A stretch of DNA of 46,304 bases from a virus, in IMG/VR virus record IMGVR_UViG_3300025889_000200, positions 1 through 46,304 of that record; one strand, written 5' to 3'. Position numbers and translations under genes: made by a program. Below the pieces are notes generated by a model that saw only the letters and a program-made list of their open reading frames with translations, was not told the origin of the DNA and did not search any database. Shown piece by piece: positions 27,983 through 45,923 of this stretch; position 1 is the first letter of the stretch, and every line of letters starts with the position of its first letter.

Positions 27983-28019
27983 TCGGAAACCCCTAGTTAT
28001 ATCTAGCTTAGACTACTAG

Positions 28020-28612: not shown

Positions 28613-29459
28613 CTGTTACCTCAGGTACATTGGGCAGCTTTTCTACATGCAATAGGTATTCATTACCATAGGAATACTTAAAGGTACGCATGTTAGGCCA
28701 GCAAGCTTTCTTATATTCGCAGAAAGAACAAGCCTTGTCAAGCTTTGTATTAGGGCTTGACTTACTTTGTGGTACAGGTGGAATACGTTCAGTTGGAAGA
28801 TCACCCTCTACCATAGCCTTAGCTTCTTTGATCTCTTTTTCTTTGTTGCCTAAGTCTTCTGAAAAATCATAGACATCTAAACAAATCTCACCACTTACTT
28901 TATCAACAGCTAGGAAGGCACCACGAGTTTTATCTGTAACAAGCGGATCATCCTTAGCTGCATATACATATGAACTTAACTGACTGATGTAACCAAATGC
29001 GTCATTGTCACGCAGTGTTCCATCTTTAAACTTTTTAAATGCATAAGAGCTGCAGGATTTTACGTCAATAGTAACACCATCAATAACAGCGTCACGATGT
29101 CCACGAATGCCATGTACGTTCAACCTATCTTGTGAACCTGCTAGGTTATGACCTGAGGCCTTTACCATAGCAAGTATTAATTCTTCAATCATATCCCCAT
29201 AAAAGAAACGTAACAGTAATGATGCATCTAATGACTCACCAAAGTCTGGTTTGTTTACTTTATACCAAAGCTTTCTTTTACAGGGTGTTCCTACAGACGA
29301 CAAAGACAGATAGCCCCTTGGTTCTTGGGGCTTACTGAACCTTTTATAAGCAGTGTCTGCTACACCAGAGCCTAGCAATTCGCTGATACTTTTAGTCCAG
29401 CCGCCTTGTCCATAGATCACACTTTGAATATCTTCAACTAGGGTCTCAAGTGTTTTCAT
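28596..29459 (-). CDS. Cas4/RecB-type PD-(D/E)XK exonuclease with iron-sulfur cysteines
   Basis: This 287-residue protein combines nuclease and Fe-S features. Cys60 (GTPCKRKLWY) and Cys244, Cys247 and Cys253 (CSFCEYKKAC) are the four Cas4/AddB-type cluster ligands. The nuclease core includes Glu92/Glu93 (GDMIEELIL), His121 and Asp123 (GHRDAVI), Asp132-x-Lys134 (IDVKS) and Gln160/Tyr164 (ISQLSSYVYA). It probably acts as a ssDNA exonuclease in phage replication or recombination. Its neighbours are the SSB and polymerase genes. There is no CRISPR array, so a CRISPR role is unlikely. It overlaps both neighbours. Confidence 0.85.
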   Translation of the reverse strand: MKTLETLVEDIQSVIYGQGGWTKSISELLGSGVADTAYKRFSKPQEPRGYLSLSSVGTPCKRKLWYKVNKPDFGESLDASLLLRFFYGDMIEELILAMVKASGHNLAGSQDRLNVHGIRGHRDAVIDGVTIDVKSCSSYAFKKFKDGTLRDNDAFGYISQLSSYVYAAKDDPLVTDKTRGAFLAVDKVSGEICLDVYDFSEDLGNKEKEIKEAKAMVEGDLPTERIPPVPQSKSSPNTKLDKACSFCEYKKACWPNMRTFKYSYGNEYLLHVEKLPNVPEVTDDTSS

Positions 29460-29574
29460 TTAATTTCTTTCTGTGTTTTCTTTTTCGAAACAACTTCTTT
29501 GTTTGATCGGCAATAACCCTGAGTCGGTACTTTGGAGTTCGTACTTCTTTTGCCACAGGGTTACGCCTTTTCAT
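29446..29574 (-). CDS. Small Arg/Lys-rich protein (42 residues)
   Basis: The frame encodes MKRRNPVAKEVRTPKYRLRV followed by a Lys/Arg-rich tail, 42 residues. It matches a common type of tiny basic protein in marine podoviruses with the pattern RNPxAxxxRTPKYRxRV. It fills the gap between the SSB and exonuclease genes and overlaps the latter by 14 bases. Strong positive charge suggests nucleic-acid binding; the function is unknown. Confidence 0.7.
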   Translation of the reverse strand: MKRRNPVAKEVRTPKYRLRVIADQTKKLFRKRKHRKKLNENT

Positions 29575-29576
29575 AG

Positions 29577-30071
29577 TTAGAAAAGAACCTCTTCACTAAC
29601 CTTTTGCTCAGACACAGGTTGAGGAGAAGAATCTTCCTTGATGTAATCTACCCTATCAAGAACAGTAACCTTGTCTAAGCGAGTGCCTACGATAGATGGA
29701 CGTGATGTATCGTAGACTGACAACTCTACCTCTACAGTAGAGCCGTTTCCAATAAGACCGTCAGAGTCAACGTCCCAAGCAGAACCATCTGCTTTAATGA
29801 CTTCAGGTGCACCGCTATCCCAGTCCTTACCTGTGTCATACTTACGCACAAACTTAACCTTTGTGCCTCGACCTTGAGGATCTTTTGATCCACGTTTCAT
29901 AGAACGTGAAGCTTGAAGTGTGTCCATACTTTGATCATCAAGTATCATATCAATAGTACAGGCACCATTGCAGTCTCGGTAGACTCCCTCAAAACCATTC
30001 ATGTCACGGTTCTGTGGAAATACTTTTGCCCATTCTGCAATACCAGTAAGTTTAATTTTACGTGTAGCCAT
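29577..30071 (-). CDS. Single-stranded DNA-binding protein
   Basis: This 164-residue protein has a beta-rich OB-like body with many basic and aromatic residues (for example GTKVKFVRKYDTGKDW). It has an acidic, flexible C-terminus ending EEVLF, the acidic-plus-aromatic tail typical of SSBs. Its place beside polymerase and exonuclease genes fits a role in coating ssDNA during replication, as T7 gp2.5 does. Residues 1-30 include a short WAKVFPQNRD motif. No close family signature is obvious, so the call depends on tail, size and context. Confidence 0.75.
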   Translation of the reverse strand: MATRKIKLTGIAEWAKVFPQNRDMNGFEGVYRDCNGACTIDMILDDQSMDTLQASRSMKRGSKDPQGRGTKVKFVRKYDTGKDWDSGAPEVIKADGSAWDVDSDGLIGNGSTVEVELSVYDTSRPSIVGTRLDKVTVLDRVDYIKEDSSPQPVSEQKVSEEVLF

Positions 30072-30085
30072 TCGGCCCTCCTTTG

Positions 30086-31921
30086 TTAGTGTACGTCACT
30101 GTACCGTTGACCATATTGTATGTCAATACCCAAGTCAACATTTAATTTAAGATCTTCATTAACTTTTTCAATAGCCCAAGTCAGTGTTTCACTATGAACA
30201 TTTTGTTCTCCTTCTTTCACCAAGTTAATTGATTCATCATGGAATTGTCCAATGATGTTAGGTCTACGTGTCATGTAGTACGCTACCCACTTGTCAAAGC
30301 AGTAAGCACCAGTTGATTGGTTGAGCGTAGAGAACACATCTTTCTCGTAGCGTAGGCTGTGCCAGAACTTACTGACAGGATTCTGTACCCACATCTCACC
30401 ATTTATGTGTCGTATCTTTTGATCCTCAGCAAACTTTTTTACTGACCAGTTACGATTCCAATAAGCATCAAGAAGATTTTGACATTCTGGTACAGACAAA
30501 CCAGTAGTACGAGATAACTTAGGTGCACCTACTCCATAAGTCGCAGAGTAATTAACCACTTTGTAGTTCTTACGCAAGGCTTTAAGCTCAGGCTTGTTGC
30601 CTTGATTGTAAGCGTCGATGTCATCCTGTGACACAGCACCTGCATGTTTAGCTAGGTCAAGGTGTGGGTCAAACCCATCCTGTGACATCTCAAACACATA
30701 AGCTGAATCGTAAGGGTGCATGTAGTGACGCTTGCATGTGTCCTCAAGAGAGGTCATATCAGCACCACACAATACGTAACCTTCAGGTGCAGTGAGGCAC
30801 CCACGGATCTCTTTACCCCAAGGTCTGTCTACCCCAGGAAGATTTACCAGGGGATTTTCATGTCTGAATCTAAGTGTATTAGTAAGACCACCAATCTCAG
30901 CTTTAACATAGCCATCACGTTCAAATCTCAAAAAGTTTTTAAAGATACCAAGCCTGTGTTTTATTACAGTTAAACCCTCCAATACTTTTACTGTTGGGTT
31001 ACTATCAATCAGTAGCTGTACTGAGGGTGATAGCTCATTGTCTTTACGGATCTGAGGTATCTTACGATCCTCTTTGTAATCAAAGGTACAAGGCTCCCAA
31101 CCAAGAGAAAACAACCAGTCCTTCACTTGAGATGAAGAGTTAGGGTTAGGATCATCATAACCTTTAACAACAGTAACACCTTCATTGTAATGTCGAGGTA
31201 AACCTTTAGAATCAAGAAGGTTAAACCACCTTTCACCATGAGCAGAGGGTGAGCCATCTTTCTTGAAACAGTTTTTAGGCTTATGCTTTACCTGAGTCTT
31301 TACAACTTTAGGCATTACCGACCCAAGCTCTTTAACCTTATCAAGCTCTTGATTAGTAAGCTCATCAAAACATTTTTGAGCTAAATCTACATCAAGCTTC
31401 CAACCAGATTGCTCTGCAATCGCAGCAGCTTTCATCTTGAACTCAAGATAACGAAAGAACTTATCCAAAAGGATCTTATCTTTTTGGTAGATGATCATGA
31501 ACTTCTTGAGTAAGTCTTGCCACAAACACCAATTAATCTTAACATCTTCTACACAACGATGTGCATACTCTTCTGGAGTACCGTTCACCCAGTCATTAAC
31601 TAATGGCTTAGGGATACCGAAGTCTTCACCAAAAGTTTCAAGCCCATGCTTCTTAGTTCTCTGATGATTAACTACCCAAGACATAGGTAAAGTGTCAAAC
31701 AACCTAGCTCTAATCTTTATACCCAGAATCTTTTCTAGTAAGGGTACATCGTAACGAATAATATTATGACCGATTAAACCACGTTGGTTTCTAAGCAACT
31801 CACGCATGTCGTTATAGTTAAACAAAGTGTCGTAATTAGAACCATCAGATGTGTATGACAAGCAATGTATTTTAGTAGCATCATCCAAAAGATTATCAGC
31901 TTCTACATCAAATACAATCAT
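30086..31921 (-). CDS. T7-like family A DNA polymerase
   Basis: This 611-residue replicative polymerase has a 3'-5' exonuclease domain: Asp5 and Glu7 (VFDVEAD), Asp58 (GHNIIRYDVP) and Asp126 (RCVEDVKIN). The polymerase domain follows: motif A with Asp388 (CGADMTSLED), motif B O-helix Arg450, Lys454, Tyr458, Tyr462-Gly463 (RKNYKVVNYSATYG), and motif C His561-Asp562-Glu563. The residue equivalent to E. coli Pol I 762 is Tyr458. The central region (about 210-300) lacks the Cys-rich DnaJ-like insertion known from HMO-2011-type phages. It works with the adjacent primase-helicase and SSB. Confidence 0.95.
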   Translation of the reverse strand: MIVFDVEADNLLDDATKIHCLSYTSDGSNYDTLFNYNDMRELLRNQRGLIGHNIIRYDVPLLEKILGIKIRARLFDTLPMSWVVNHQRTKKHGLETFGEDFGIPKPLVNDWVNGTPEEYAHRCVEDVKINWCLWQDLLKKFMIIYQKDKILLDKFFRYLEFKMKAAAIAEQSGWKLDVDLAQKCFDELTNQELDKVKELGSVMPKVVKTQVKHKPKNCFKKDGSPSAHGERWFNLLDSKGLPRHYNEGVTVVKGYDDPNPNSSSQVKDWLFSLGWEPCTFDYKEDRKIPQIRKDNELSPSVQLLIDSNPTVKVLEGLTVIKHRLGIFKNFLRFERDGYVKAEIGGLTNTLRFRHENPLVNLPGVDRPWGKEIRGCLTAPEGYVLCGADMTSLEDTCKRHYMHPYDSAYVFEMSQDGFDPHLDLAKHAGAVSQDDIDAYNQGNKPELKALRKNYKVVNYSATYGVGAPKLSRTTGLSVPECQNLLDAYWNRNWSVKKFAEDQKIRHINGEMWVQNPVSKFWHSLRYEKDVFSTLNQSTGAYCFDKWVAYYMTRRPNIIGQFHDESINLVKEGEQNVHSETLTWAIEKVNEDLKLNVDLGIDIQYGQRYSDVH

Positions 31922-33525
31922 GCTGCCATATCACTCCTTACAAACGGTGCTTCTTCACTGAGGATTGTAGTCTCAGGATCATAGTAGACTGAGCCAGCCT
32001 TACCTAGCTTAGCAAAGGGACGATTCTTATCTACAATAAACTCAGTAGTATTCTGAAGGATCTCATCCTCAGATTCCGTATCACGCTCGATCTTTATACA
32101 GATGATTGCTTCTTCTTCAAGAGAAGCTGCATACTTTGTTCTACCATCATCATTAACCTGTGATATAAAGATCACACCTATGTTTAATTCCTTGGCAAGT
32201 TGTGCCATGCGTGAACCTAAGGTAGTCAGTGTACTGGTAGCACCATCAACTCCAGAGTTAGATAAGTAAGCCAAACGTTGTACGTGATCTACAAATACAT
32301 AGTCTGCACCATAAGCTGACACTGCAAGTCTTGTGTAGTCAAGTAGCTTCAGTGGATCATCATGTGACATCATCTCAAAGATAATAGTACGGTTATGTTC
32401 TGAGTCAGCAATCTTATTAGCAGCTTCCTCAACCTGATCTAAATTATAACCGTTGCGCTCAGCATCTTCTTTAGTTCTAACATTACAGCCAAGGTGGTAA
32501 GTAGCCATAGCACGTAACGTAGTAGATTTCATTTCTTCCATGTGAAGCAAAGCTATCTTTGTATCACTGTCTTGCAACAGACCTGTCTCAAAATATCTGA
32601 TTACCTCAGTCTTACCAGTACCACGAGGTGCTTTGATAAATGTCAAGCCACCCTTTACCATACCACGAATCTTTTCGTCAAGACCAGAATGTCCAGTTGA
32701 GATATACTCATAAGGACTTTCAGTTCTCAATGCGTGAGAGAAATCATCAGAAGAGCAAAAGAAATTTTCTGGTGAATATCGTTGAGGTTTCTTAGCAGCC
32801 CACATTAATTCTGTGCTATCACCTGCTTGCAGAAAGTCATTAGCATCTTTATGCTTTGACATAGGTACATAATAAAAGGTATCAGGGAATGCCTGATAGA
32901 GTTTGTCAGCAGCTACACGTCCAGCTGCATCAAGCTCACCTGCATAGATTATCTCTTTGAATGACGACAAGAAAGCATGATTATGCTTTATAAACTTCTC
33001 ACCGATAGAGGCGCTGGGCAAAGACTTTACAGGAAACGTCTTGCCAAGGATTTGATATAAGGATGCAGCATCAAACTCACCCTCAGTCAAGTAAATGCGG
33101 TGGCTTGTACCTGCATTAAAGTCAGGGCCAAACAGGTAGTTCATACCTAGTCCACGATCCTTCACCCAAGACTTTGACTTGTCATTGTACAGCCTATATT
33201 TGGTAGTGTGTGGATACTTGTAAGCATAGCGTACAGGCTCACCCTTCTCACCAGTCTGTAGTTGAATGCCGTAAAGCTCACACACATCAGAATCTATACC
33301 CCTGATGTTTTGGTAGGTCATCCCTGTAACTGGTATATCCATAGGGTTTCTCCTTTCTGGGAGAGGGTATTCTGTTCTTACCCAATCAAATGTTTCTGAC
33401 ATATCTTTAGAGGGATAGGAACTGCCACAAGAATGGCAGTGACCGTATCCATCGTCGTTCCAATTAAATGCATCGCTTGATCCACAATGCGTGTAGGGAC
33501 AAGCTAAGTGTGGGTTATCTCCCAT
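31918..33525 (-). CDS. T7 gp4-like primase-helicase
   Basis: This 535-residue bifunctional protein has an N-terminal zinc ribbon (Cys9, Cys14, Cys30, Cys33), needed for primase template recognition. The TOPRIM primase core shows Glu148 (LTEGEFDA), Glu197/Asp199 (GELDAAG) and Asp227-Asp230 (DAND). The helicase domain has a Walker A motif at 299-306 (APRGTGKT), Walker B at 410-413 (VFVD) and downstream DnaB-like motifs. It unwinds DNA and makes RNA primers for the phage polymerase, whose gene it overlaps (ATGA). Close to the size of T7 gp4. Confidence 0.92.
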   Translation of the reverse strand: MGDNPHLACPYTHCGSSDAFNWNDDGYGHCHSCGSSYPSKDMSETFDWVRTEYPLPERRNPMDIPVTGMTYQNIRGIDSDVCELYGIQLQTGEKGEPVRYAYKYPHTTKYRLYNDKSKSWVKDRGLGMNYLFGPDFNAGTSHRIYLTEGEFDAASLYQILGKTFPVKSLPSASIGEKFIKHNHAFLSSFKEIIYAGELDAAGRVAADKLYQAFPDTFYYVPMSKHKDANDFLQAGDSTELMWAAKKPQRYSPENFFCSSDDFSHALRTESPYEYISTGHSGLDEKIRGMVKGGLTFIKAPRGTGKTEVIRYFETGLLQDSDTKIALLHMEEMKSTTLRAMATYHLGCNVRTKEDAERNGYNLDQVEEAANKIADSEHNRTIIFEMMSHDDPLKLLDYTRLAVSAYGADYVFVDHVQRLAYLSNSGVDGATSTLTTLGSRMAQLAKELNIGVIFISQVNDDGRTKYAASLEEEAIICIKIERDTESEDEILQNTTEFIVDKNRPFAKLGKAGSVYYDPETTILSEEAPFVRSDMAA

Positions 33526-33738
33526 CTATCTCTCCTTTGATCTTTGACGCTCCTCTTTTGTCATAGGTCGGATGTATTGTAAATAGTTAATTGCACGGCC
33601 TGTATTCCACCTTGCAGCTTCTTCATCTGCTTGCTCCTTAGTCTCAAAGGTTCGCACCTCTGTGTCGTAGGTCCAAGGGTTTTCTTTTCGCACCAGAGTG
33701 TACTCACCTTTCTCAATCTCAATCTCCACTGCGTACAT
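33526..33738 (-). CDS. Small acidic/basic hypothetical protein
   Basis: I choose the ATG at 33738 (MYAVEIEIEKGEYTLVRKEN), which has AGGGG at good spacing; a GTG two codons earlier is the alternative. The 70-residue product has a beta strand pair, a helix rich in Glu/Ala (KEQADEEAARWN) and a basic tail ending RQRSKER. It lies directly before the primase-helicase gene and overlaps the preceding small gene by 20 bases. Family not recognised. Confidence 0.55.
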   Translation of the reverse strand: MYAVEIEIEKGEYTLVRKENPWTYDTEVRTFETKEQADEEAARWNTGRAINYLQYIRPMTKEERQRSKER

Positions 33739-33889
33739 CTTCACCCCTTTCTGATTCTAGGCCAGCTTTGACTAAGGCTACAAACCCTGCGTTAAAGATA
33801 GCCATAAAAGTTTCTGGATCACATTCTACTTGTAGTGTAGCACTACCATCCTCGTGCTCTTCTACTTCTGTTATCTTAACTTCACTCAT
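33719..33889 (-). CDS. Small acidic protein (56 residues)
   Basis: The frame runs from the ATG at 33889 to a TGA at 33719. It encodes a 56-residue acidic protein beginning MSEVKITEVEEHEDGSATLQ, followed by a hydrophobic helix (PETFMAIFNAGFVALVKAGL). It overlaps both neighbours, which supports a real gene in this tightly packed operon. The pattern suggests a small strand-helix fold. Function unknown. Confidence 0.6.
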   Translation of the reverse strand: MSEVKITEVEEHEDGSATLQVECDPETFMAIFNAGFVALVKAGLESERGEDVRSGD

Positions 33890-34037
33890 CCTTCACTCCT
33901 ATACATGGTAGCAAGATAGACAGCTTGCAATACTTTGGGTACTCATCGTATGTCATGGCTATCAACACAGGTGGCGCAGCTATCAGTAAAGCTACAATAG
34001 CTGACGCCTTGACTGCTCCGTTGATGTTACCTCTCAT
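33882..34037 (-). CDS. Small single-pass membrane protein (51 residues)
   Basis: The ATG at 34037 opens a 51-residue frame ending at 33882. It has a hydrophobic segment at about residues 10-28 (KASAIVALLIAAPPVLIAM) and two Cys in the C-terminal part (KYCKLSILLPCIGV). It overlaps ThyX by 11 bases and the following gene by 8. Tiny membrane proteins of this type in early operons may alter the host envelope; no function can be assigned. Confidence 0.6.
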   Translation of the reverse strand: MRGNINGAVKASAIVALLIAAPPVLIAMTYDEYPKYCKLSILLPCIGVKDE

Positions 34038-34689
34038 AATTATCCTCCGCTAATGATTCCCAGGATACAGGGAATAACTCATACATCTCCCCTGCAATTA
34101 ATTCTGCAACCTCTCGTGTCTCAGCTTGAGTATCTTCAGCGCAGCGTAGCTTACACATATCAGCAAATGCATCCAAGCTACCTGACCAGTACCACTCAGT
34201 CATCATAGACTGTGGCAGTACCATACGTGCTTGCTCTGGACATACACCATGTTCTAATAACTCGTTGTAACTGCGTAGTGTAGTATGCTCGTAAAAACTT
34301 AGGATGTCTGGATCAGGATAAGTTACTCCTGCACTACCCTGCTTTTTGTCAGCACTACGTCCACGCCATTCTGTTGGCTGATAAAACTCAGGCTCACTGT
34401 CCACATATCTACGGCTAATCTCATTCCAACGTAGAAACTTATGCTTGACTAACTGCCTAGCTACAAAGACTGGTGCCTTGATGTGAAAGCTTGCAAAGCA
34501 ATGCCCAAAAGGGCTGATGTGTTTGTGCTCTGCCAAGTAACGTATGAGCTTGGCGTCCTTGTCTTTCAACTTAGGTGGACCCCACACGTCACTCGTATCC
34601 ATCTCACTCTTCTTACCAAAGGATACTCGTGCAGCATTAGCTACAGTCAAGTCAGTACCCATGTGATCTATGAATGTTACTTCAATCAT
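34027..34689 (-). CDS. thyX: Flavin-dependent thymidylate synthase ThyX
   Basis: This 220-residue enzyme makes dTMP from dUMP using FAD and methylenetetrahydrofolate. The ThyX signature lies at residues 82-94 as KHKFLRWNEISRR, aligned to RHRxxSxNExSxR. It retains His83, Asn89, Glu90, Ser92 and Arg94, but has Lys in place of both flanking Arg and Arg in place of the first Ser. SMMTEWYWSGSLDAF (161-175) is the conserved C-terminal substrate region. Full length for the family. It complements the RNR and MazG genes in dNTP supply and overlaps the integrase gene (ATGA). Confidence 0.9.
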   Translation of the reverse strand: MIEVTFIDHMGTDLTVANAARVSFGKKSEMDTSDVWGPPKLKDKDAKLIRYLAEHKHISPFGHCFASFHIKAPVFVARQLVKHKFLRWNEISRRYVDSEPEFYQPTEWRGRSADKKQGSAGVTYPDPDILSFYEHTTLRSYNELLEHGVCPEQARMVLPQSMMTEWYWSGSLDAFADMCKLRCAEDTQAETREVAELIAGEMYELFPVSWESLAEDNYER

Positions 34690-35570
34690 TCTCTTTCCCT
34701 TCTTTCAAGAGCAGACTTTGCAGTCTTCAAACTAAATTTATTATACGGATTTAAACTCGCTACACTTTTGTGACCTGATACAGATTGTATTGCTAGATGA
34801 TCAACACCACTTGATATCATCTGAACTATAGCAGTCTTTCTCAAATCACCCACTTGTAGCTCGTCAGGAAGCCCAGCAGTAGCTTTAACCTCTCTAAGCA
34901 ATGCTGTCATCTGTGATACTGTTAGCGGCCTGTAGGCACTGTCCTGTGGCCTGTGGTGAGGTACTACGTAGTCTTGGAAGTCCCAGTCATCCTTCTGTTG
35001 ATGTAACATACCAACTAAGTTGTCAGGTATTGGTAATTCCACAGTAGCACCTCTCTTAGTCTGGGTGATGGTAACTTTATCATTATCAAAGTCAATATCA
35101 CCCCAAGTAAGATTTCTTATGTCAACAGGACGTTGACCCCACTCATAACACATCAACACTATCAAGCCAATACTTCTCCAATCAAATTTTGTAAAGGCTG
35201 TATCAAGGAAGGTGATAACTTGATCATGTGTCCACACTACAGATCTTGGAGTGCTTGTTCGTTTATTAACTCTGGACATTGGATTGTAATTAATAATATC
35301 CAACGATACTAAAAAGTTCATGAGAACTGAGAACACCCTAGCATTATGGTTTGCATTGGCGATAGAGTTCTCTAGTTCCCATGTGTCATACATCTCAGAA
35401 CACTTGATAGCGTTAATGTTTAACACGCTAACGTTACCAAGTGTGCTACCCATAACAGACATACGACAAAAATAATTAAGTCTTGATTCATAGTTTCTTT
35501 GAGTAGAATACGACAAAGAGTTAAAGTGTCTAGACCTTAAGTATTTCTCTACTGCTTTTTTCAATCTCAT
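34686..35570 (-). CDS. int: Tyrosine recombinase / phage integrase
   Basis: This 294-residue protein has an N-terminal SAM-like DNA-binding domain (about 1-100) and a C-terminal catalytic domain. Box I has Arg147 (WGQRPVDIRNLTWGDID). Lys172 (TKRG) is the likely catalytic lysine. Box II has Arg244 (GDLRKTA) and His267 (SGHKS). The nucleophile is Tyr276 (NPYNKF). The residue three before Arg244, usually His, is Gly241. It would insert the genome into the host chromosome, implying the ability to be temperate. Its start overlaps the stop of a 15-codon upstream frame, and ACCTTAAGGT palindromes lie just upstream. No clear attP was proven. Confidence 0.88.
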   Translation of the reverse strand: MRLKKAVEKYLRSRHFNSLSYSTQRNYESRLNYFCRMSVMGSTLGNVSVLNINAIKCSEMYDTWELENSIANANHNARVFSVLMNFLVSLDIINYNPMSRVNKRTSTPRSVVWTHDQVITFLDTAFTKFDWRSIGLIVLMCYEWGQRPVDIRNLTWGDIDFDNDKVTITQTKRGATVELPIPDNLVGMLHQQKDDWDFQDYVVPHHRPQDSAYRPLTVSQMTALLREVKATAGLPDELQVGDLRKTAIVQMISSGVDHLAIQSVSGHKSVASLNPYNKFSLKTAKSALERRERE

Positions 35571-35687
35571 ATTTTATCTATCCAATGTGTACAGTCATCA
35601 TGTGGGTCATCCATAAGTAGTCTCCTTATGTATACCTTAAGGTTTAATAATTATATTTATTATAAAATTAATAATAAACCTTAAGGT
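35534..35687. promoter_or_regulatory. Three ACCTTAAG-type palindromic sites at the integrase start
   Basis: Two perfect ACCTTAAGGT sites lie at 35634-35643 and 35678-35687, centres 44 bp apart. They flank an AT-rich stretch that contains two TATAAT boxes on the leftward strand. A third site (GACCTTAAGTAT, 35533-35544) lies in the first integrase codons and is identical over 12 bases to a site at 41945-41956. They are likely operators that control integrase expression by the same protein that binds the 41.8 kb array. Alternatively they are integrase arm sites. Confidence 0.6.
35567..35614 (-). CDS. 15-residue leader peptide upstream of the integrase
   Basis: AAGGAG stands 7 bases before an ATG that encodes MDDPHDDCTHWIDKI. 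The TGA stop overlaps the integrase ATG. The integrase itself has no separate strong ribosome site, so it may depend on translation of this leader. The short Asp/His/Cys-containing peptide could also be just a coupling device. Not confirmed as a product. Confidence 0.5.
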   Translation of the reverse strand: MDDPHDDCTHWIDKI

Positions 35688-35711
35688 TACATTAGGTATA
35701 CGTAAAGTAAG

Positions 35712-35737
35712 ATATTGTCAATACACTGAGACAATAT
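35712..35737. repeat. Inverted repeat beside the integrase gene (candidate attP core or hairpin)
   Basis: ATATTGTC (35712-35719) and GACAATAT (35730-35737) are perfect inverted arms around 10 bases. The position between the integrase promoter region and the peptidase stop is right for an attachment core. It could equally be a weak terminator for the leftward peptidase transcript, though no U-run follows. A leftward TTGACA lies in the same stretch. Confidence 0.35.
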
Positions 35738-35738
35738 G

Positions 35739-36695
35739 TCACATATACCTTCTGGCTGCATAATTATCTAGGTAGGTGTAGTACTGACTGGTATCCTCAA
35801 TGTGACATTCTTCCATCAATGAGTATGGAGTGAATCCATAAGCGTCAAGCAACTCAGCAATAGCACTGGGATAGTCTCGTACTAGAGTCGTCAAGTCACT
35901 GACATTCTCTTGATCAATAGAGGTACGGTTACTACCGTATGAGTAGAGTCCATAGTCATCCTCAAAGACCGTAGGATCACGAGTAAACACCAACTTAGAC
36001 CAGTCAGCTTGCACCAAGGCAATGCACAATAACTCTGCAAAATCAAGGTCTTGAGTCTCGTTGACACCATGCTGCCCATAGTAACCTACACTGATGTTTG
36101 TACACTCAGAGACCACAGATGCATACTCATTGCTGTCTGTGTATGAGCCACCCGTATCAGCTTCTAGTTGTGGTAAGTCTACTGCTGCGGCAAAGGACTT
36201 AGCGAACTCATCAGAGGCAGTACGCACACCCATCTGGTGTGTGATCACAGAGCTATCACCGTATCTGTCGAATGATATCACTGCGTCAAGATGACTCAGC
36301 CAAGGTGGGTTATCCGCTACCAATGCACGACTACCCTTACAACCAATCTCCTCTGCTGCATGGACTACATAGACACCCTCAATACCTGCTTCAATCATGT
36401 TGAGCATGAGCCAGACACCAGTGGTACAGTCAGCACCAAGGCAGTTGGAAGTCTTGCTGTCAGCTACAGACACCACGTCATTCATGACCACTAGCTTCTG
36501 ATAACCAGACTGCTTGTGTACTGTGTCATGGTGTGACGCAAAGCATAGCCGTGGTTTGTCACCAATGATGTGGATATAGTTACCATGAATATCTGGCAAC
36601 CCAAAGGTAGGTTCGAGGAACCGTAAACAAAATTCTTTCTGCGCTTGTGAAGCTTCAGGCCTCATGTAACGCAGCATCTCTATCAAACTATACAT
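35739..36695 (-). CDS. Predicted dizinc metallopeptidase (M20/M28/M42-like)
   Basis: This 318-residue protein carries the complete ligand set of co-catalytic zinc peptidases in order: His55-x-Asp57 (SHHDTV), Asp89 (LGADCTTGV), Glu115-Glu116 (AAEEIGCKGS), Asp143 (SFDRYG) and His209 (GQHGVNETQD). The catalytic Asp57 and Glu115 are both present, so an active aminopeptidase or dipeptidase is plausible. There is no signal peptide, so the action would be in the cytoplasm. A C-terminal extension (about 240-318) is acidic and unlike the family. Such enzymes are unusual in podoviruses. It overlaps its upstream neighbour by 8 bases and has an AAGGAG site. Confidence 0.7.
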   Translation of the reverse strand: MYSLIEMLRYMRPEASQAQKEFCLRFLEPTFGLPDIHGNYIHIIGDKPRLCFASHHDTVHKQSGYQKLVVMNDVVSVADSKTSNCLGADCTTGVWLMLNMIEAGIEGVYVVHAAEEIGCKGSRALVADNPPWLSHLDAVISFDRYGDSSVITHQMGVRTASDEFAKSFAAAVDLPQLEADTGGSYTDSNEYASVVSECTNISVGYYGQHGVNETQDLDFAELLCIALVQADWSKLVFTRDPTVFEDDYGLYSYGSNRTSIDQENVSDLTTLVRDYPSAIAELLDAYGFTPYSLMEECHIEDTSQYYTYLDNYAARRYM

Positions 36696-38265
36696 CTAAT
36701 TCTCCTTGTACATTTTTCCATGTGCTATCTTCTTGTAATTCCCAGACACCATGATGGTCATCTAGCTCAGACTTAGCTACATCACTACCATCATCAAGCG
36801 TACACATCACGGTACGAGGATACCACTCGTCACTCCAATCAGAGAGGAAGTAATCGTCCATACCATTGGGTGATACCCAGCTGTCCTCACACTCGATGTA
36901 GGTCACATCATCTGCATCCCAATACTCATCATCATCATCGCAGTATATAAAGGCACTGGTGTTCTGTGCATAGTCACGAGACACTCTGAAATTAGTCTGA
37001 TAACCACTCCTAGTGACTCTGTAGACTACAACAGCATCATCCTCGTGGACATCCTCTCCTGCATATTCACAGTAGAAGTGGACGTTGTAGTAGCAACACT
37101 CACAGTAGTGCTCATCAGTAGTCTCTGAGTAGTAGTAGTCATCCTCACTTAGACCATCACCGCAGCTAGTACAGTTAGTATAATGACCATTGAGTACCCC
37201 ACCATAGTCAGTGGCATTGATCTCACCACCATGTGCAACCACTAACCATGAACCAGTGTCATCAAGTGACTGAGGTGCTAGGTCAAGGTATGGTGCAATG
37301 AAGCCACCACCATCATGCTCGACTCTACGTAGCTTGGCACCTGTGAAGTCAGGGTCTCTGACCTCTACATTACGTAGTAACAGATGATCATACACAAAGT
37401 CAATAGCTTGCTCTGATACACCGTAGATAGGTGCAGCCTGTGGCTTGTCAGGGTGCTTGACATACACGTTAGTACGTGCAGCAATACGACCATGAGCATC
37501 AGTAGCATAGACAACCTCGAAGTCACCAGACGCATAGGCTTCTGCAGGGTGCATAGGTAGATGGTCAAACTCGTAGCGCATACAGCTGTGAGCTAGATGC
37601 TTACGAAACCAAGTGGTGTCGATGTTCTCATTGTGAGACTGCTCATGCGAGTATGCACGTTTGAATGACTCAGCATCCCTAGCCTGATGCAAGGTGAGGT
37701 CACGGTCAGCAAACTCTTTGAGGAATGCATCAGTCATCATGATGATCTGCTTGTGATCGAACTCAGGGAACATGAAGCTGAATGCACGGCCAGGTTTCAT
37801 AGCTATCTGCCTGTCGTTGTGCATGTCCTTGAGTGACTGATAGATAGACACCTTACCCTCTGCAATCTGAGAGCGCATAGGCTGCATCGAGAGTAGCCGA
37901 AAGCGAGACTTGAAGGTATCGCTGTCAGCTGTGGTATTGAGTAGCCACGTAAGCACCCAATCGAACAGTGGCCTGTCCTTGCGGTCAAACACACTGACAT
38001 CAGAGTAATCACCCCATGCACGTAGCACGGGGTCAGTCTCGTTAGCATCTTCGACATAGACACGCTTGACCACAAAGCCATTGGCATGTAGCTGAGGCTC
38101 AATATAGTACGTTTCACCACTGTTGAGTGTAACATTGCCACCGATGAAGTAGCCACCCTCAGTGGTCTTAGCACTGACCACATCGTAAGGCTTGCCGATA
38201 GTAACGTCATCGACAAACATAAGCGGGATAAGATCTTGATTAACTGGTATCACTTGGTATTGCAT
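36688..38265 (-). CDS. Large Cys-rich, possibly zinc-binding phage protein
   Basis: I start it at the ATG at 38265 (MQYQVIPVNQ), which has GGAGG upstream; an in-frame ATG at 38289 is also possible. The 525-residue product is rich in Asp and Tyr. Between about residues 370 and 420 it has two closely spaced cysteine groups (NCTSCGDGL, then HYCECCYYNVHFYCEY) that look like one or two zinc ribbons. The N-terminal 350 residues are mixed alpha/beta with many basic patches. The C-terminus has repeated acidic strands (DDDDEYWDADDVTYIE). No known domain is recognised. Context is the accessory leftward cassette between the peptidase and HTH genes. Confidence 0.55.
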   Translation of the reverse strand: MQYQVIPVNQDLIPLMFVDDVTIGKPYDVVSAKTTEGGYFIGGNVTLNSGETYYIEPQLHANGFVVKRVYVEDANETDPVLRAWGDYSDVSVFDRKDRPLFDWVLTWLLNTTADSDTFKSRFRLLSMQPMRSQIAEGKVSIYQSLKDMHNDRQIAMKPGRAFSFMFPEFDHKQIIMMTDAFLKEFADRDLTLHQARDAESFKRAYSHEQSHNENIDTTWFRKHLAHSCMRYEFDHLPMHPAEAYASGDFEVVYATDAHGRIAARTNVYVKHPDKPQAAPIYGVSEQAIDFVYDHLLLRNVEVRDPDFTGAKLRRVEHDGGGFIAPYLDLAPQSLDDTGSWLVVAHGGEINATDYGGVLNGHYTNCTSCGDGLSEDDYYYSETTDEHYCECCYYNVHFYCEYAGEDVHEDDAVVVYRVTRSGYQTNFRVSRDYAQNTSAFIYCDDDDEYWDADDVTYIECEDSWVSPNGMDDYFLSDWSDEWYPRTVMCTLDDGSDVAKSELDDHHGVWELQEDSTWKNVQGELDV

Positions 38266-38755
38266 ATTGCCTCCATTCAGGTTCTTCACCCCAATTCCAA
38301 GTTAGGGTAATGTTACGTTCTTTCCAACGATCAACCATGTAATCACGGTATGCTTGGTGCACATCGTCTTTCCATGAATGATCAACTTGACGTTCCAAAT
38401 TCCTAGCACAGTTTGCAAATGGTGTAAGTTCTTCACGAGGAAACTCACCAATATCTGCATATTTTTGAAACAGTGGTATCAGGTTAGCAGACTTATGACT
38501 ACCACTCTTTTGGGTATAAAGCCAACTCATATGGCTAAGTAACCATTTAAAGTTATCACGAGAAGCCCTTGCCCATTTGGTACAAGGGTGATTCATGTAT
38601 GCAAGTCTATACACCGCTAAGTCTGTATCTGGACTCAGCCAACGCACTGCGGTGGATAACATTTGCGCAGATTCAAGAATCATTTTGTTTTTGCGAATGT
38701 CATCCAACCACAGTGCAGACTGCATAGGACACTTGTCCAGTGCAAATATGTTCAT
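38240..38755 (-). CDS. Conserved phage protein with ESAQML motif, function unknown
   Basis: This 171-residue protein begins MNIFALDKCPMQSALWLDDI and continues with KMILESAQMLSTAVRWL. That pattern is seen in an uncharacterised protein class of T4-like and other phages. Other recurring features are NHPCTKWARASRDNFKWLLS (about 55-75) and a WKERNITLTW end. The His/Cys/Trp-rich layout suggests a compact enzymatic or metal-binding fold. It overlaps the large Cys-rich gene by 26 bases and follows the HTH gene with an ATGA overlap. Function not assigned. Confidence 0.6.
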   Translation of the reverse strand: MNIFALDKCPMQSALWLDDIRKNKMILESAQMLSTAVRWLSPDTDLAVYRLAYMNHPCTKWARASRDNFKWLLSHMSWLYTQKSGSHKSANLIPLFQKYADIGEFPREELTPFANCARNLERQVDHSWKDDVHQAYRDYMVDRWKERNITLTWNWGEEPEWRQYAIPSDTS

Positions 38756-39129
38756 GCTTGTAAGATACCTACCTTATGCTCAGTTACAGTTACTTGGGTA
38801 AACTTATCACCCATCTTCAGCTTACGCTGAATCTTAGCAAACTCTACATTACCGTAGAACTTACCATTCATAATATAGCCACCACGTCTAACTATGAAGT
38901 TTAACTTGGACTTAGTAGGCTTAGGCTGCTGCACCCTGTCAGGGTTAGGATTACGACCAGCAGATTTAGGTAAAAAACCTAGCTTTCTATACCAAAGAGA
39001 GATAGTATGTTGAGTAGTACCATTCTCAGGTAGATCGAAATGCTTTGCAGTTTCTTTCCAAGTATGGTTAGAATAAAACTCACATACAGTACGCTTGAAC
39101 TCAGTAGTAAACTTTACACGATTGTCCAT
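38752..39129 (-). CDS. Helix-turn-helix DNA-binding protein
   Basis: I choose the ATG at 39129 because AAGGAG lies 9 bases before it; the longer frame from 39177 starts inside the hairpin region. The 125-residue product begins MDNRVKFTTEFKRTVCEFY. A homeodomain/transposase-like HTH follows (HTWKETAKHF turn, then GTTQHTISLWYRKLGF recognition helix), at about residues 10-55. A basic linker (AGRNPNPDRVQQPKPTKSK) and a C-terminal beta-rich domain come next. It could be a transcription regulator of this cassette or of the CTTAAG-type operators. The DNA target is not known. Confidence 0.65.
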   Translation of the reverse strand: MDNRVKFTTEFKRTVCEFYSNHTWKETAKHFDLPENGTTQHTISLWYRKLGFLPKSAGRNPNPDRVQQPKPTKSKLNFIVRRGGYIMNGKFYGNVEFAKIQRKLKMGDKFTQVTVTEHKVGILQA

Positions 39130-39157
39130 GATTCTTCTCCTTTTCATGGGGGTCACA

Positions 39158-39309
39158 GTGCTGAAACAGCACCACAAAACATAACATTAAGTTATGCTTT
39201 CTGGTAATGTTTAGACTCCCACCGCATGGAAAGGACAAACACACGGTGGGAGGATCAGAGCTAGTGCACCCACTATACTAGCTCCGCTCTTAGGGGAGAC
39301 CAATCCCCT
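39158..39309 (-). ncRNA. Cluster of five hairpins before the HTH gene
   Basis: Five perfect inverted repeats follow one another in 152 bases: 39158-39172 (GTGCTG/CAGCAC), 39180-39196 (CATAAC/GTTATG), 39216-39252 (CTCCCACCG/CGGTGGGAG), 39258-39284 (GAGCTAGT/ACTAGCTC) and 39292-39309 (AGGGGA/TCCCCT). The region lies between the stop of a small gene and the HTH start. It might be a structured 5' leader, a set of terminators and processing sites, or a small RNA. No U-run terminator is evident. Confidence 0.5.
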
Positions 39310-39439
39310 ATTGGCAAATAGTCACGTTAGTAATATCTCTACTACGTAGGTATTTAAGCATCTGGTCAACCTTACGCTCAGGCATAGTACACAAGAACAT
39401 ATCATTCACAAACACTCTTACTACTTTAAATATACTCAT
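39308..39439 (-). CDS. Small protein (43 residues) before the hairpin cluster
   Basis: The ATG at 39439 opens a 43-residue frame beginning MSIFKVVRVFVNDMFLCTMP. It continues with a basic helix (ERKVDQMLKYLRSR) and ends DITNVTICQ. The predicted strand-helix-strand layout resembles a tiny folded domain. Its start overlaps the upstream gene by 14 bases. Its stop lies in the first hairpin of the structured region. Family unknown. Confidence 0.55.
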   Translation of the reverse strand: MSIFKVVRVFVNDMFLCTMPERKVDQMLKYLRSRDITNVTICQ

Positions 39440-39644
39440 CTTTCACCATACTTTCTACTTGATCTTCCACCAAACGTATCTCACCACTTGGGAGATGAAG
39501 CTCAAGCTCCATGTCAGTGTGACCAAAATCTTCAGGATCACGCTTGATAAGACGGGCCACTATGTCACTTAAGGACTCACCTGTTTCATCAAGTACGATT
39601 GCACCACATTCTTTTTCGTACCAACCAGTTAATATTACTGTCAC
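39426..39644 (-). CDS. Small acidic hypothetical protein (GTG start)
   Basis: The start is a GTG at 39644, one base after the preceding stop, with an AGAGG site. The 72-residue acidic product starts MTVILTGWYEKECGAIVLDE, then has an acidic helix (SDIVARLIKRDPEDFG) and a beta pair (MELELHLPSGEIRLVEDQ). This suggests a small alpha/beta fold. No family is recognised; tight packing supports it as real. Confidence 0.55.
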   Translation of the reverse strand: MTVILTGWYEKECGAIVLDETGESLSDIVARLIKRDPEDFGHTDMELELHLPSGEIRLVEDQVESMVKDEYI

Positions 39645-39645
39645 A

Positions 39646-39846
39646 TCATACCTCTATCCATTTTAGATCAAACACGCTAGGGAAAAAGTTATTCACCCTA
39701 CCTGTAGATGCAGAATGACGTGGAGGTTCTGCACTTGTGATCACAGATGCATTGCCACGAAAGTCTACAATCCTATCACCACCATAGACAGGCTCACGGT
39801 TTTCATCCACAAGCTGCCACTTCACACCATTTAATATTTTAATCAT
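39646..39846 (-). CDS. Small hypothetical protein
   Basis: I select the ATG at 39846 (MIKILNGVKWQLVDENREPV), which has GGAGGG 4 bases upstream. The longer frame from 39873 would overlap the preceding membrane peptide. The 66-residue product is beta-rich with a Gly-rich loop (YGGDRIVDFRGNASVITSAE) and ends VFDLKWIEV. The layout suggests a compact beta domain. Function unknown. Confidence 0.5.
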   Translation of the reverse strand: MIKILNGVKWQLVDENREPVYGGDRIVDFRGNASVITSAEPPRHSASTGRVNNFFPSVFDLKWIEV

Positions 39847-39847
39847 A

Positions 39848-39937
39848 TCACCCTCCAAAGTTAGTGATTGCAAAGATAAACAGGCCAGTCACGATTAACC
39901 AGCCTGTCATTACAAAGATCCAACCCGCTAGTCGCAT
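39848..39937 (-). CDS. 29-residue membrane peptide
   Basis: The frame encodes MRLAGWIFVMTGWLIVTGLF and a short tail ending NFGG. It is almost wholly a single transmembrane helix with two positive-inside residues. It starts within a TGATG overlap with the preceding gene. Such tiny membrane peptides are often overlooked; this could be a toxin-like or lysis-modulating peptide, but nothing proves it. Confidence 0.4.
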   Translation of the reverse strand: MRLAGWIFVMTGWLIVTGLFIFAITNFGG

Positions 39938-40428
39938 CACGCAATAAGTGCTTTAAGTGATTTGATAAGGTCAGACGGCACCTCATCACTATCTTGCAAA
40001 CCATCCTGACGGCGCTTCTCAGCACGAGCGATCACTGATGCAATCACGTCAGGAAGGTTTAATGGTTTATATTCGGCCTCTTTCTTGAACTCCCAAAAAG
40101 GAGTTTGAATTGCAGCCTGTGCGTCATCAAAACTGATCTTAGTACGCTTGGCATGATAGGCAAAGCACTTGTCATCAGTATTCCAGACGAATGTAGCATA
40201 AGTCTCCACCCACGCTTTGAAAGCGTTAGCACGAGACATGGCTGGAATAGCAGCAAGCAAAGCATTCATTTGACGCACTGCTGCTGACACATCACTGCTG
40301 TCATGCCAACGACGAATGATAGCACAAGCGGCAGTGTGGATATCCTGTTGCACAGTTTTACCACGTTTGTCGATTGATGAAATCAGAGCGTCAATTTGTT
40401 CGTCAGTTTTTACGTATTTGTTAGCCAT
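39937..40428 (-). CDS. Hypothetical protein, first gene of the leftward accessory cassette
   Basis: I start at the ATG at 40428 (MANKYVKTDEQID), preceded by GGAGG at 5 bases; the longer 40455 frame has no such site. The 163-residue protein is helical with an Asp/Lys-rich N-terminus and a central HTAACAIIRRWHDSSDV segment. An aromatic stretch follows (FKAWVETYATFVWNTDDKCF), then a basic helix (VIARAEKRRQDG). No conserved family is evident. It is the promoter-proximal gene of the leftward cassette and borders the control region, so it may act early in infection. Confidence 0.55.
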   Translation of the reverse strand: MANKYVKTDEQIDALISSIDKRGKTVQQDIHTAACAIIRRWHDSSDVSAAVRQMNALLAAIPAMSRANAFKAWVETYATFVWNTDDKCFAYHAKRTKISFDDAQAAIQTPFWEFKKEAEYKPLNLPDVIASVIARAEKRRQDGLQDSDEVPSDLIKSLKALIA

Positions 40429-40541
40429 TGGAACCTCCATGATGTAGCATAACACTATGCACCCACCATAGATGCACAGTGCAAGCTACACCAAAGGCCA
40501 GACATCCCACAGAACGAAAGGCCTAAGGGTTCACTTGTCAC

Positions 40542-40858
40542 GCAATGGGTGCATGTCTCAGCAGGTGTGTAGCACGCACACTTATCCCATTGCACATATA
40601 GTGCTATCCCGTAGGGGTGGTCATGGCTCAGATCGACAGGTACAAAGGTAGCACTATCAAATAGCGCACACCTATAGCGTACAAACTCACTGAGCTATCG
40701 CACCCCACTTGCTTACTGTCCACCCTGCACAGCATAACCATGCAGGCCTTACGGCACTGTCTTATTGGGCTACCTTCTATCCACCAATAAGCAAGGGGCA
40801 CCCGCAGAGCGGGCTATGGTCACAGTCAAGGGGCAGGTCAGCGCCTATCGGTCTGTGA
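40542..40858. repeat. Series of long inverted repeats
   Basis: The following perfect arms occur in succession: GCAATGGG (40542-40549) with CCCATTGC (40586-40593); ATAGTGCTA (40598-40606) with TAGCACTAT (40649-40657); CTTATTGG (40761-40768) with CCAATAAG (40784-40791); CCCGC with GCGGG (40801-40813); TCACAG (40820-40825) with CTGTGA (40853-40858). The first has an inner GTGTG/CACAC pair. Such density is unlike the rest of the window and may reflect folded RNA or a cruciform-rich origin. Confidence 0.65.
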
Positions 40859-41421
40859 TAACCTAAAACCAGATAAGCACTTACCCAAAAGATAATCAAC
40901 AACTAATTTGGACAGGGTGTTAAGATATTGAAAACACTAAGTTTTATTTTATATATTCTATTTGGTGAATATGTAATCAGACCGAATCAGTCCAAAAGGG
41001 TGATTCGCTATCCGAAGGGGTAGGGTCTTTTTCTAATATAATGAGTGGAACAGATAGGGTACAAACGTTCTGCTTTTGTTCTGGTTGACTGGGAGAGCTA
41101 CCCTAAAGGATACGACAGTAATACTTACCTATACTAATGGGTAGTCGTATTTATGCTTTAGGATATAAAACCTATACAGTAGTAGAGATAGTGTAGGTCA
41201 GAGGTATAGGTCAGAGCTATCCTTTGGGGTAGGTTTAGTTATCCTTTGGGATGCATAACCTCCTCTTTCTGAGTTTGTGATCACAAATCTGAGTGTAATC
41301 GCTACCCGTTTGGATATAGTGAATACTCTATTGTATAAAATACCTAGTTATTACAGATAGTTAGACTACTCAGAGTGATAGTTTGTGCTATACGAAAGGA
41401 TAGAGGGTGCTATACCTATGG
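40603..41421. repeat. Dispersed GCTATCC-N4-GGGTAG hairpin repeats
   Basis: At least eight related imperfect palindromes of 16-19 bases occur: 40603-40620, 41007-41025, 41097-41114, 41129-41144, 41216-41233, 41238-41254, 41301-41319 and 41387-41405, with a weaker one at 41409. Examples are GCTATCCGAAGGGGTAG, GCTATCCTTTGGGGTAG and GCTATACGAAAGGATAG. Stems of about 6 bp change in both arms while the four-base loop varies (GAAG, TTTG, TAAA, GTTT, GAAA). This suggests a conserved folded element or binding site. Confidence 0.75.
41274..41287. promoter_or_regulatory. 14 bp perfect palindrome TTTGTGATCACAAA
   Basis: This perfect palindrome is flanked by CTGAG-like repeats on both sides. The TGTGA/TCACA halves resemble CRP/FNR-family half-sites but without the usual 6-base spacer. 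It may be a site for a dimeric regulator from phage or host. Confidence 0.4.
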
Positions 41422-41482
41422 GGGCATGGGCCATACGGGGGGTACCTGTACGTATATACACCCAATGACAGCGGGGGCTATT

Positions 41483-41595
41483 TTTTAAGGTGTTAACTAC
41501 AATGTAAATACATTAAATTTTCTTTAATATTTTCTTAAACCCCTTTAATTTATTTTAATAGCAGTAACATTACGTTACAAACTGTAACATTACGT
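41483..41595. promoter_or_regulatory. AT-rich stretch with two GTAACATTACGT direct repeats (candidate origin)
   Basis: GTAACATTACGT occurs at 41564-41575 and 41584-41595, exactly 20 bases apart, about two helical turns. Directly upstream (41483-41562) the DNA is strongly A/T-rich. Direct repeats beside an AT-rich unwinding zone are typical of iteron origins, but a regulator operator is also possible. The first copy is itself nearly palindromic (GTAAC/GTTAC). Confidence 0.5.
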
Positions 41596-41746
41596 GATTA
41601 AAATGTTAATCCTCCATACAAGCCCCAGGAATAGCCTTAACTATCTTGATAGCCTAACCCCTATCAGATCCCTTTACCCCCACTCAGACAGCCTCTCAGA
41701 GCCTCTCAGCACGTATTCTACCCCAAGGCGGGGGCGTAAAGTAATA

Positions 41747-41966
41747 ACTTAAGGTAATTCTCAAGATTCATAAATAATTATTAAAATAGGTCTTGACAAA
41801 TACCTTAAGTTATACTATAATATATACCTTAAGGTATACCTTAAGTACTAATACTAACATTATAGTTATATCTTTAGTACTTTAAGTACACCTTAAGTAC
41901 TAATATTACTTCTATAATATAAATATTATTAAACCTTAAGGTATGACCTTAAGTATACCTTAAGGT
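41747..41966. promoter_or_regulatory. Array of nine CTTAAG-core palindromes (operator array)
   Basis: Sites related to ACCTTAAGGT are at 41747-41755, 41802-41810, 41826-41835, 41838-41846, 41879-41887 (ACTTTAAGT), 41890-41898, 41933-41942, 41946-41954 and 41957-41966. The site at 41823-41838 extends to a 16 bp perfect palindrome TATACCTTAAGGTATA. Groups are spaced 11-12 bp centre to centre, one helical turn, which favours cooperative binding on one DNA face. The array overlaps a promoter and precedes the rightward lysis operon. The same site occurs at the integrase. Confidence 0.8.
41793..41821 (+). promoter_or_regulatory. Consensus sigma70 promoter inside the operator array
   Basis: TTGACA (41793-41798) and TATAAT (41816-41821) are separated by exactly 17 bases, a perfect match to the bacterial consensus. 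One palindrome lies within the spacer and another (41826-41835) at the expected start point, the ideal geometry for strong repression. It points toward the lysis operon at 42047 and beyond. Confidence 0.75.
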
Positions 41967-42013
41967 AGATTCTTGGATGTTCAAGTTTTTCTGTCGTCCC
42001 ACTTAAAGAATCC

Positions 42014-42041
42014 TTGACTTTCTAAAAGTAAGCTGTATAAC
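42014..42041 (+). promoter_or_regulatory. Second promoter, possibly giving a leaderless mRNA
   Basis: TTGACT (42014-42019) and TATAAC (42036-42041) are 16 bases apart. The -10 box ends only 5 bases before the ATG at 42047, so transcription would begin at or next to the start codon. No Shine-Dalgarno sequence precedes that ATG. Confidence 0.5.
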
Positions 42042-42046
42042 TAGCC

Positions 42047-42298
42047 ATGTCCAAACCAAAAATGTATATCAGCGATGACGTACTCGGTGAATTTTATAAA
42101 GCTCTCGCTGATGAAGACGAAGGAAGACTACGTAGGGTCCACATTCCGAGATCCGATGTCTTCTACGTAAGAAAAAAAATATTTGAAGACACTGGCATTA
42201 AGTATTCCCTAGACAGAGTTGAAAGAGCTATGTACCTAGAGGGACATCTTAAGGCTTCAGACGTGTTTGAACCTAATAAAAAGAGGGATTGGGAATGA
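42047..42298 (+). CDS. Small putative regulator, first gene of the rightward operon
   Basis: This 83-residue charged protein starts MSKPKMYISDDVLGEFYKAL and has a helical core. A segment RRVHIPRSDVFYVRKKIFED with many basic residues is followed by GIKYSLDRVERAMYLEG, a possible helix-turn-helix-like part. I do not recognise a family. It is the first gene after the operator array and appears to lack a ribosome site, so it may be read from a leaderless transcript, as some phage repressors are. Its stop overlaps the next start (ATGA). The regulator role is inference from position. Confidence 0.55.
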   Translation: MSKPKMYISDDVLGEFYKALADEDEGRLRRVHIPRSDVFYVRKKIFEDTGIKYSLDRVERAMYLEGHLKASDVFEPNKKRDWE

Positions 42299-45782: not shown

Positions 45783-45923
45783 ATGTTTAAGAATATTTTA
45801 AAAGCGATTCAAAAGAACCAACAACGACGAGCAGACTATTGGATACTCATGAACCTGAGTGACAAAGAACTGCATGATATGGGGATCAGTAGAGGTGAAA
45901 TCAGGCAAAAAGTCTACGGTTAA
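45783..45923 (+). CDS. DUF1127-like small protein (46 residues)
   Basis: The frame encodes MFKNILKAIQKNQQRRADYW followed by ILMNLSDKELHDMGISRGEI and RQKVYG. The L-x-x-L-x-D-x-E-L-x-D-x-G-I-x-R-x-x-I pattern is the DUF1127 signature. DUF1127 proteins are small, Arg-rich and common in Alphaproteobacteria, where some interact with RNA or affect metabolism and stress. A phage copy could alter host regulation; that is inference. It has its own promoter and a ribosome site held in a hairpin. Its end overlaps the next gene. Confidence 0.8.
   Translation: MFKNILKAIQKNQQRRADYWILMNLSDKELHDMGISRGEIRQKVYG

Follow-up and report, generated by a model that had tools for sequence, protein, structure and literature searches.

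Phage operators placed on lytic and integration promoters are, as a principle, well known. In phage lambda, the palindromic operators of OR and OL, which are read by CI and Cro, overlap strong promoters and control the integration and lytic genes together. Ribbon-helix-helix repressors such as Arc and MetJ act through tandem short palindromic operators placed about a helical turn apart, and in Alphaproteobacteria the host transcription factor CtrA recognizes the site TTAA-N7-TTAA. The stoperators of Cluster A mycobacteriophages are of another kind, being asymmetric, distributed genome-wide and read by a monomer (PMC9283540). Descriptions of the HMO-2011-type phages call them dominant in the ocean and broadly distributed there, and some of these phages integrate. 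Group II phages combine CRP-6 replication genes with HMO-2011-type morphogenesis genes, and an integrase is present in most of them (PMC8528129).

Genomic Context of the Locus

The window, that is, the whole stretch of DNA analysed here, comprises the 46,304 bases of an IMG/VR virus record and derives from an uncultivated phage that encodes an integrase. The DNA polymerase has its best match in the Roseobacter phage CRP-6 (54%), the lysis region matches HMO-2011 and the CRP phages, and the integrase is about 41% identical to the integrases of CRP-2 and HMO-2011; judged by these matches, the phage is an assembly of an HMO-2011-like late module, a CRP-6-like replication module and an integrase, which is the group II combination. 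The contig is probably incomplete, since neither terminase nor portal genes were seen on it. According to the order of the open reading frames, leftward genes span 24460-40455 and rightward genes start at 42047; the array described below occupies the junction between these divergent gene sets and lies upstream of the late operon, which runs rightward and contains the gene of an 83-aa protein together with lysis, packaging and structural genes. A DUF1127 protein is also encoded in the late region (45783-45923; PF06568, 7e-8), and the annotation of CRP-603 has one too.

Temperate growth is plausible, by analogy, for the phage group to which the window belongs, because the integrase relative CRP-3 integrates at a host tRNA-Met (PMC6918029). 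No tRNA was found in the window and a Rfam scan gave no match; a prophage search of GTDB genomes returned none that was convincing, only phage-like contigs binned into MAGs.

A Cluster of Short Palindromes at the Late Promoter

The original prediction described a dense operator array of nine sites in 220 bp over a consensus promoter. Nine palindromes were indeed found at 41746-41966 (Table 1), eight of them with a CTTAAG core (at 41748, 41804, 41828, 41840, 41892, 41935, 41948 and 41959) and one with a CTTTAAG core (at 41880); three sites, those at 41826, 41933 and 41957, are perfect copies of ACCTTAAGGT. Nine sites fit into the best 220 bp within 41460-42046, whereas 2000 dinucleotide shuffles gave 0.6 on average, with 4 as the highest count. 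The window as a whole shows no enrichment of CTTAAG (20 observed versus 18 expected), and the unusual feature of the array is its clustering, not the overall count of the core. Many of the sites had been said to lie 11-12 bp apart, a claim that holds for part of the array only: the centre-to-centre gaps are 56, 24, 12, 40.5, 11.5, 43, 13 and 11 bp, so that four of the eight measure 11-13 bp while the others measure 24-56 bp, and the sites are grouped into short tandem clusters.

The palindromes surround an exact TTGACA-17-TATAAT promoter, here called P1, whose agreement with the sigma-70 consensus at all 12 positions was as predicted; also as predicted, one site lies in its spacer and another over its expected start near 41828. 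A P1-equivalent promoter is present in 109 related array regions. Further downstream, a second promoter-like element, P2, precedes the 83-aa gene; P2-like elements occur in 102 of 121 related loci, and 12 of them enclose an array-type site. In the window, P2 ends so close to the ATG that it would yield a leaderless transcript, and the P2 equivalents of HMO-2011 and CRP-2 have a -35 that overlaps the annotated ATG, which means that their P2 transcripts would begin within the gene.

The junction as a whole is a 1.6-kb stretch without clear genes (40456-42046). Short hairpins with the pattern GCTAYCC-NNNN-GGRTAG, about six or seven in number, also lie in it (41008-41405) and are mostly kept in the near-identical relative L099. 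An AT-rich hairpin between the site clusters gave shuffle z-scores averaging -0.8 at the array and -1.4 at int, values too weak for a claim.

Table 1. Coordinates of the palindromic sites, promoters and genes discussed in the text (positions in the window).
Feature	Position	Strand	Remark or basis
Tyrosine integrase (int)	34686..35570	-	PF00589, 8e-22; phrog_1, 3.5e-43
int-promoter distal site (ACCTTAAGGT)	35634..35643		motif search
int-promoter site (ACCTTAAGGT)	35678..35687		at expected P_int start
Presumed int/replication promoter (P_int), -35 (TTGACA)	35716..35721	-	read from sequence
Early HTH protein (start MDNRVKF...), candidate operator-binding regulator	38752..39129	-	ORF clustering and profile matches
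Array site 1 (AACTTAAGGT)	41746..41755		upstream of P1
P1, TTGACA-17-TATAAT, rightward promoter of the late operon	41793..41821	+	12/12 sigma-70 consensus, 17-bp spacer
Array site 2 (ACCTTAAGTT)	41802..41811		within P1 spacer
Array site 3 (ACCTTAAGGT)	41826..41835		overlaps expected P1 start
Array site 4 (ACCTTAAGTA)	41838..41847		motif and shuffle scan
Array site 5 (TACTTTAAGTA), only odd-type core	41878..41888		motif and shuffle scan
Array site 6 (ACCTTAAGTA)	41890..41899		motif and shuffle scan
Array site 7 (ACCTTAAGGT)	41933..41942		motif and shuffle scan
Array site 8 (ACCTTAAGTA)	41946..41955		motif and shuffle scan
Array site 9 (ACCTTAAGGT)	41957..41966		motif and shuffle scan
P2, TTGACT-17-TATAAC, second promoter-like element	42014..42041	+	ends 5 nt before the ATG of the 83-aa gene
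83-aa protein, first gene of the late operon	42047..42298	+	strongly conserved; no family match

Matching Sites at the Integrase Promoter

Two more exact copies of ACCTTAAGGT, which were absent from the original prediction, lie upstream of int, at 35634 and 35678, where they flank an AT-rich stretch and sit downstream of the int promoter. The -10 of this promoter, P_int, is a poor one in the window (TACCTA, 35693-35698), and some relatives have a better one. From int the genes continue in overlapping or adjacent open reading frames, through thyX (PF02511) and further genes to the primase/helicase and the DNA polymerase, and for this reason P_int probably drives the replication module as well.

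The same region shows two further features. On the minus strand, a 15-codon leader open reading frame (MDDPHDDCTHWIDKI; 35573-35618) overlaps the int start codon and is kept in most integrase relatives; in CRP-2, the MDDPHDDCTHWIDKI leader peptide belongs to a longer gene that precedes int. In the related loci L011, L012, L013, L022, L023, L030, L039, L051 and L066, a complete tRNA-Arg(TCT) gene is found between the operator pair and int; if this gene were the attachment site, integration would leave the promoter and operators on one side and int with the replication genes on the other.

Conservation of the Arrangement and of the Core Type

Relatives of the window phage were collected by an integrase search and by a search with the 83-aa protein. 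They show no repeat of ACCTTAAGGT, and the same two promoters carry TACTTWAAGTA or TACTTAAGTA instead; in the integrase relatives, the TACTTWAAGTA form was recognized only on reading their promoters. An exact-motif scan of viral contigs gave 19 matches, among which L099 was the sole kin, the others being unrelated contigs. In 44 relatives, the 420 bp that precede the 83-aa homologue hold 4.7 sites on average, where 0.16 would be expected from the rest of the locus; at least one site is present there in 42 of the 44, and the spacing between neighbours peaks at 10-13 bp. Across 145 related loci (2.17 Mb; a partly redundant set, in which some contigs were included more than once), site density is 8.9 per kb in the arrays, 6.5 at int and 0.35 elsewhere, and tandem pairs number 152 at the array and 63 at int, with none elsewhere, although about 2 chance pairs would be expected outside the two promoters by an estimate from single-site density. 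Of 410 TTWAA cores, 244 are flanked by C and G, where composition predicts about 1.6%; this defines the palindrome TACTTWAAGTA. Comparable layouts built of other palindromes occur in isolates, namely CACTTAAGTG in HMO-2011, ACTTATAGT-like palindromes in CRP-13 and TTAACATTAATGTTAA in CRP-2, and the arrays of CRP-13 and of the related locus L185 use CTTATAG. A motif search in related phages, suggested as a check on the original prediction, did not show the loss of the palindromes that would have refuted it: their class, their tandem phasing of 10-13 bp and their placement shortly after a strong promoter are all kept, although ACCTTAAGGT itself drifts to TACTTWAAGTA.

The sites of the related arrays are concentrated in the interval that begins at the -10 and reaches to about +120, and few lie upstream of it; counted from the end of the -10, a strict site falls between -25 and +30 in 78 of 109 relatives. 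Such positions suit a repressor, because a protein bound downstream of the -10 would block RNA polymerase and not help it.

The core of the palindrome alternates between an even form of 6 bp (CTTAAG) and an odd form of 7 bp (CTTWAAG). The int promoter and the late array share their core type in all 36 genomes that could be scored at both, an agreement that corresponds to 2 independent contrasts when well-supported branches are counted and to 4 with all branches, and that is not significant after allowing for descent; the core-type label of each promoter has undergone about four changes on the integrase tree. This agreement of site type supports, as far as sequence comparison goes, a single sequence-specific regulator for the late and int promoters, and, taken with the restriction of tandem pairs to those promoters, it points to one that would act in trans on both.

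Candidate Regulators

Clustering of the early open reading frames of 59 genomes yielded one widespread, fast-diverging family of DNA-binding type, which is present in 39 of the 59 genomes and in 39 of the 42 that have the early region of the window. Members of this family match HTH_Tnp_1 (7e-7), HTH_28 (4e-6) and PHROG 323, "transcriptional regulator, D5-like" (1.3e-5), and many contain a coiled-coil; the member encoded in the window is too divergent to match Pfam and gave no match to PHROG 323 either. In a first set of genomes, the class A and class B forms of the HTH protein accompanied even sites in 7 of 7 scored cases and other forms went with odd sites, a link that may partly reflect shared descent, since the integrase tree is compatible with the class-A genomes as one clade (monophyly not rejected, p-AU 0.38). 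When class A was used as a prediction on seven further informative contigs, six were mainly even; the array of the remaining one, L284, is odd, and its HTH recognition helix differs from that of the other class-A members, a difference that may or may not account for the odd array.

In some genomes whose arrays are strong (e.g., L046, L056 and L153), no member of the family was found, and profile searches of the genomes without it gave only weak or unrelated matches, including short HTH-like open reading frames in CRP-207 and CRP-2. In L046, the place where synteny would put the HTH gene is taken by the gene of an unrelated protein of 104 aa whose C-terminus is coiled-coil-like, an arrangement that suggests the replacement of a regulator. 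Among the window proteins scanned, Pfam and PHROGs recognized no CI/Cro-type repressor gene and no ribbon-helix-helix protein, the latter being of a small kind that is easily missed. The early HTH protein is the best candidate for the operator-binding regulator, and it is proposed tentatively, on its profile matches and its association with site type, because the family is absent from some genomes with arrays and the prediction failed in L284.

Proposed Control of Both Promoters and Alternative Explanations

The locus is best explained, with fair probability, by one trans-acting repressor that reads both promoters through a repressor-type operator array. Dimers of one phage-encoded DNA-binding protein would bind, perhaps cooperatively, side by side and one helical turn apart on palindromes of 10-11 bp; those lying over and just downstream of P1 would block the rightward late operon, and the same protein, placed on the matching sites of the leftward P_int, would control int and the replication genes behind it. 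The regulator could be expressed from the early genes upstream of int (35739-40455), which have no tandem sites. The original prediction had spoken of a cooperative phage repressor switch, and this stands in so far as the type agreement fits one regulator and the positions suit a repressor, but no CI-like repressor was recognized. A more specific model is possible, if somewhat doubtful: a transposase-like HTH protein, and no CI, would silence the late and the integration/replication genes together from tandem short palindromes, and its specificity would shift by one central base pair in every operator of both promoters, an immunity code that would split related phages.

We infer that such a repressor would serve lysogeny or immunity and not only the timing of early and late expression. 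A regulator that mainly times the lytic cycle, repressing or activating the promoters of the late and replication genes and playing no part in lysogeny, is an unlikely alternative; it would agree with CRP-13, which gave no match to the window integrase and has its tandem ACTTATAGT-like palindromes in the same place downstream of a strong promoter, and with the failure to recognize a CI-like repressor or a convincing prophage in GTDB genomes, but a second set of sites stands at the integrase promoter, the relatives of the integrase are temperate, with CRP-3 at tRNA-Met (PMC6918029), and sites placed downstream of the -10 speak against a classical activator. The binder could also be the 83-aa protein encoded downstream of the array, regulating its own gene, which is quite unlikely. 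Its gene alone among the array-adjacent ones is shared by every genome compared, those of HMO-2011 and the CRP phages among them, and in the window it has a promoter-like element immediately upstream; the protein, however, gave no HTH or other fold match (best PDB match E 0.65, with an AF2 model of pLDDT 81.5 obtained from a more diverse alignment, the earlier model having had a pLDDT of 62), its HIPRSDVFYVR core is nearly invariant while the sites switch type, and 94% identical copies occur in L057, with even sites, and L258, with odd sites. With neither family, PDB nor fold support and with a poor link to site type, it was rejected as the binder.

Palindrome clusters on both sides of AT-rich DNA, within a 1.6-kb region that has no clear genes, a cumulative GC skew minimum at the array and a second site set that precedes the replication genes, as in iteron plasmids, would also suit an iteron replication origin whose initiator binds the array and autoregulates the int/replication promoter. 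This is very unlikely, as the skew minimum falls where the coding strand changes, which explains it, the sites track promoter geometry and are sometimes inside the P1 or P2 spacer, and CRP-9, CRP-13, HMO-2011 and the group of the window differ in their replication modules (PMC8528129) yet have comparable layouts. Binding of the array by a host transcription factor such as CtrA is highly improbable: known relatives infect Alphaproteobacteria and TTAA-N7-TTAA is the commonest spacing of TTAA pairs in the arrays (77, versus 54, 40 and 24 for N6, N8 and N9), but the C and G flanks (CTTWAAG) are conserved far beyond what CtrA needs, the CTTATAG arrays of CRP-13 and L185 are without TTAA, and a joint even/odd switch is not expected of a conserved host factor. 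That the palindromes are arm-type or accessory sites for an integrase or excisionase is barely credible, even with two of them just upstream of int, given that the alignment of the integrase to phrog_1 starts no earlier than profile position 165 and the protein begins at the core-binding region, so that an arm-binding domain seems to be absent, that the main array is 6 kb away on a late promoter, and that the layout is common to CRP-13, whose lack of a match to the window integrase was noted above.

With a single repressor as the preferred reading, the array offers a sequence handle on how HMO-2011-type phages may choose between lytic growth and lysogeny. The site variants form a natural series by which immunity groups could be defined with no more than sequence, and a candidate regulator is provided.

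Comparison with Known Systems

The window has its late module, 83-aa gene, integrase and CRP-6-like polymerase in common with the HMO-2011-type phages and the hybrids with a CRP-6 module (PMC9038755, PMC8528129). Text searches of the papers on HMO-2011-type phages found no mention of operators, promoters, palindromes or a repressor, and a wider search of open-licence papers found nothing on this array.

Similarly to OR and OL of lambda, the palindromes of the window overlap the promoters that they would control, and int and the late genes stand under matching sites; unlike those of lambda, the sites are 10-11 bp long, number up to nine per promoter and are phased at about one helical turn, their targets are the late and the int/replication promoters, and no CI or Cro homologue was recognized near the array. 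The adjoining of short palindromes about one helical turn apart recalls the operators of Arc and MetJ, whereas the candidate regulator is HTH_Tnp_1-like and no protein of the ribbon-helix-helix type was recognized. The match of some members of the HTH family, the window's own not included, to the D5-like regulators of T5 is a resemblance only. With the stoperators of Cluster A mycobacteriophages (PMC9283540) the array shares the many copies of a short phage-specific site and variants that differ between related phages; in contrast to stoperators, the sites are symmetric and their tandem pairs are confined to two promoters and not dispersed. What is new in this locus, compared with these systems, is the use of many short tandem sites at two promoters with no recognizable CI, and the joint switch of both promoters between even and odd cores.
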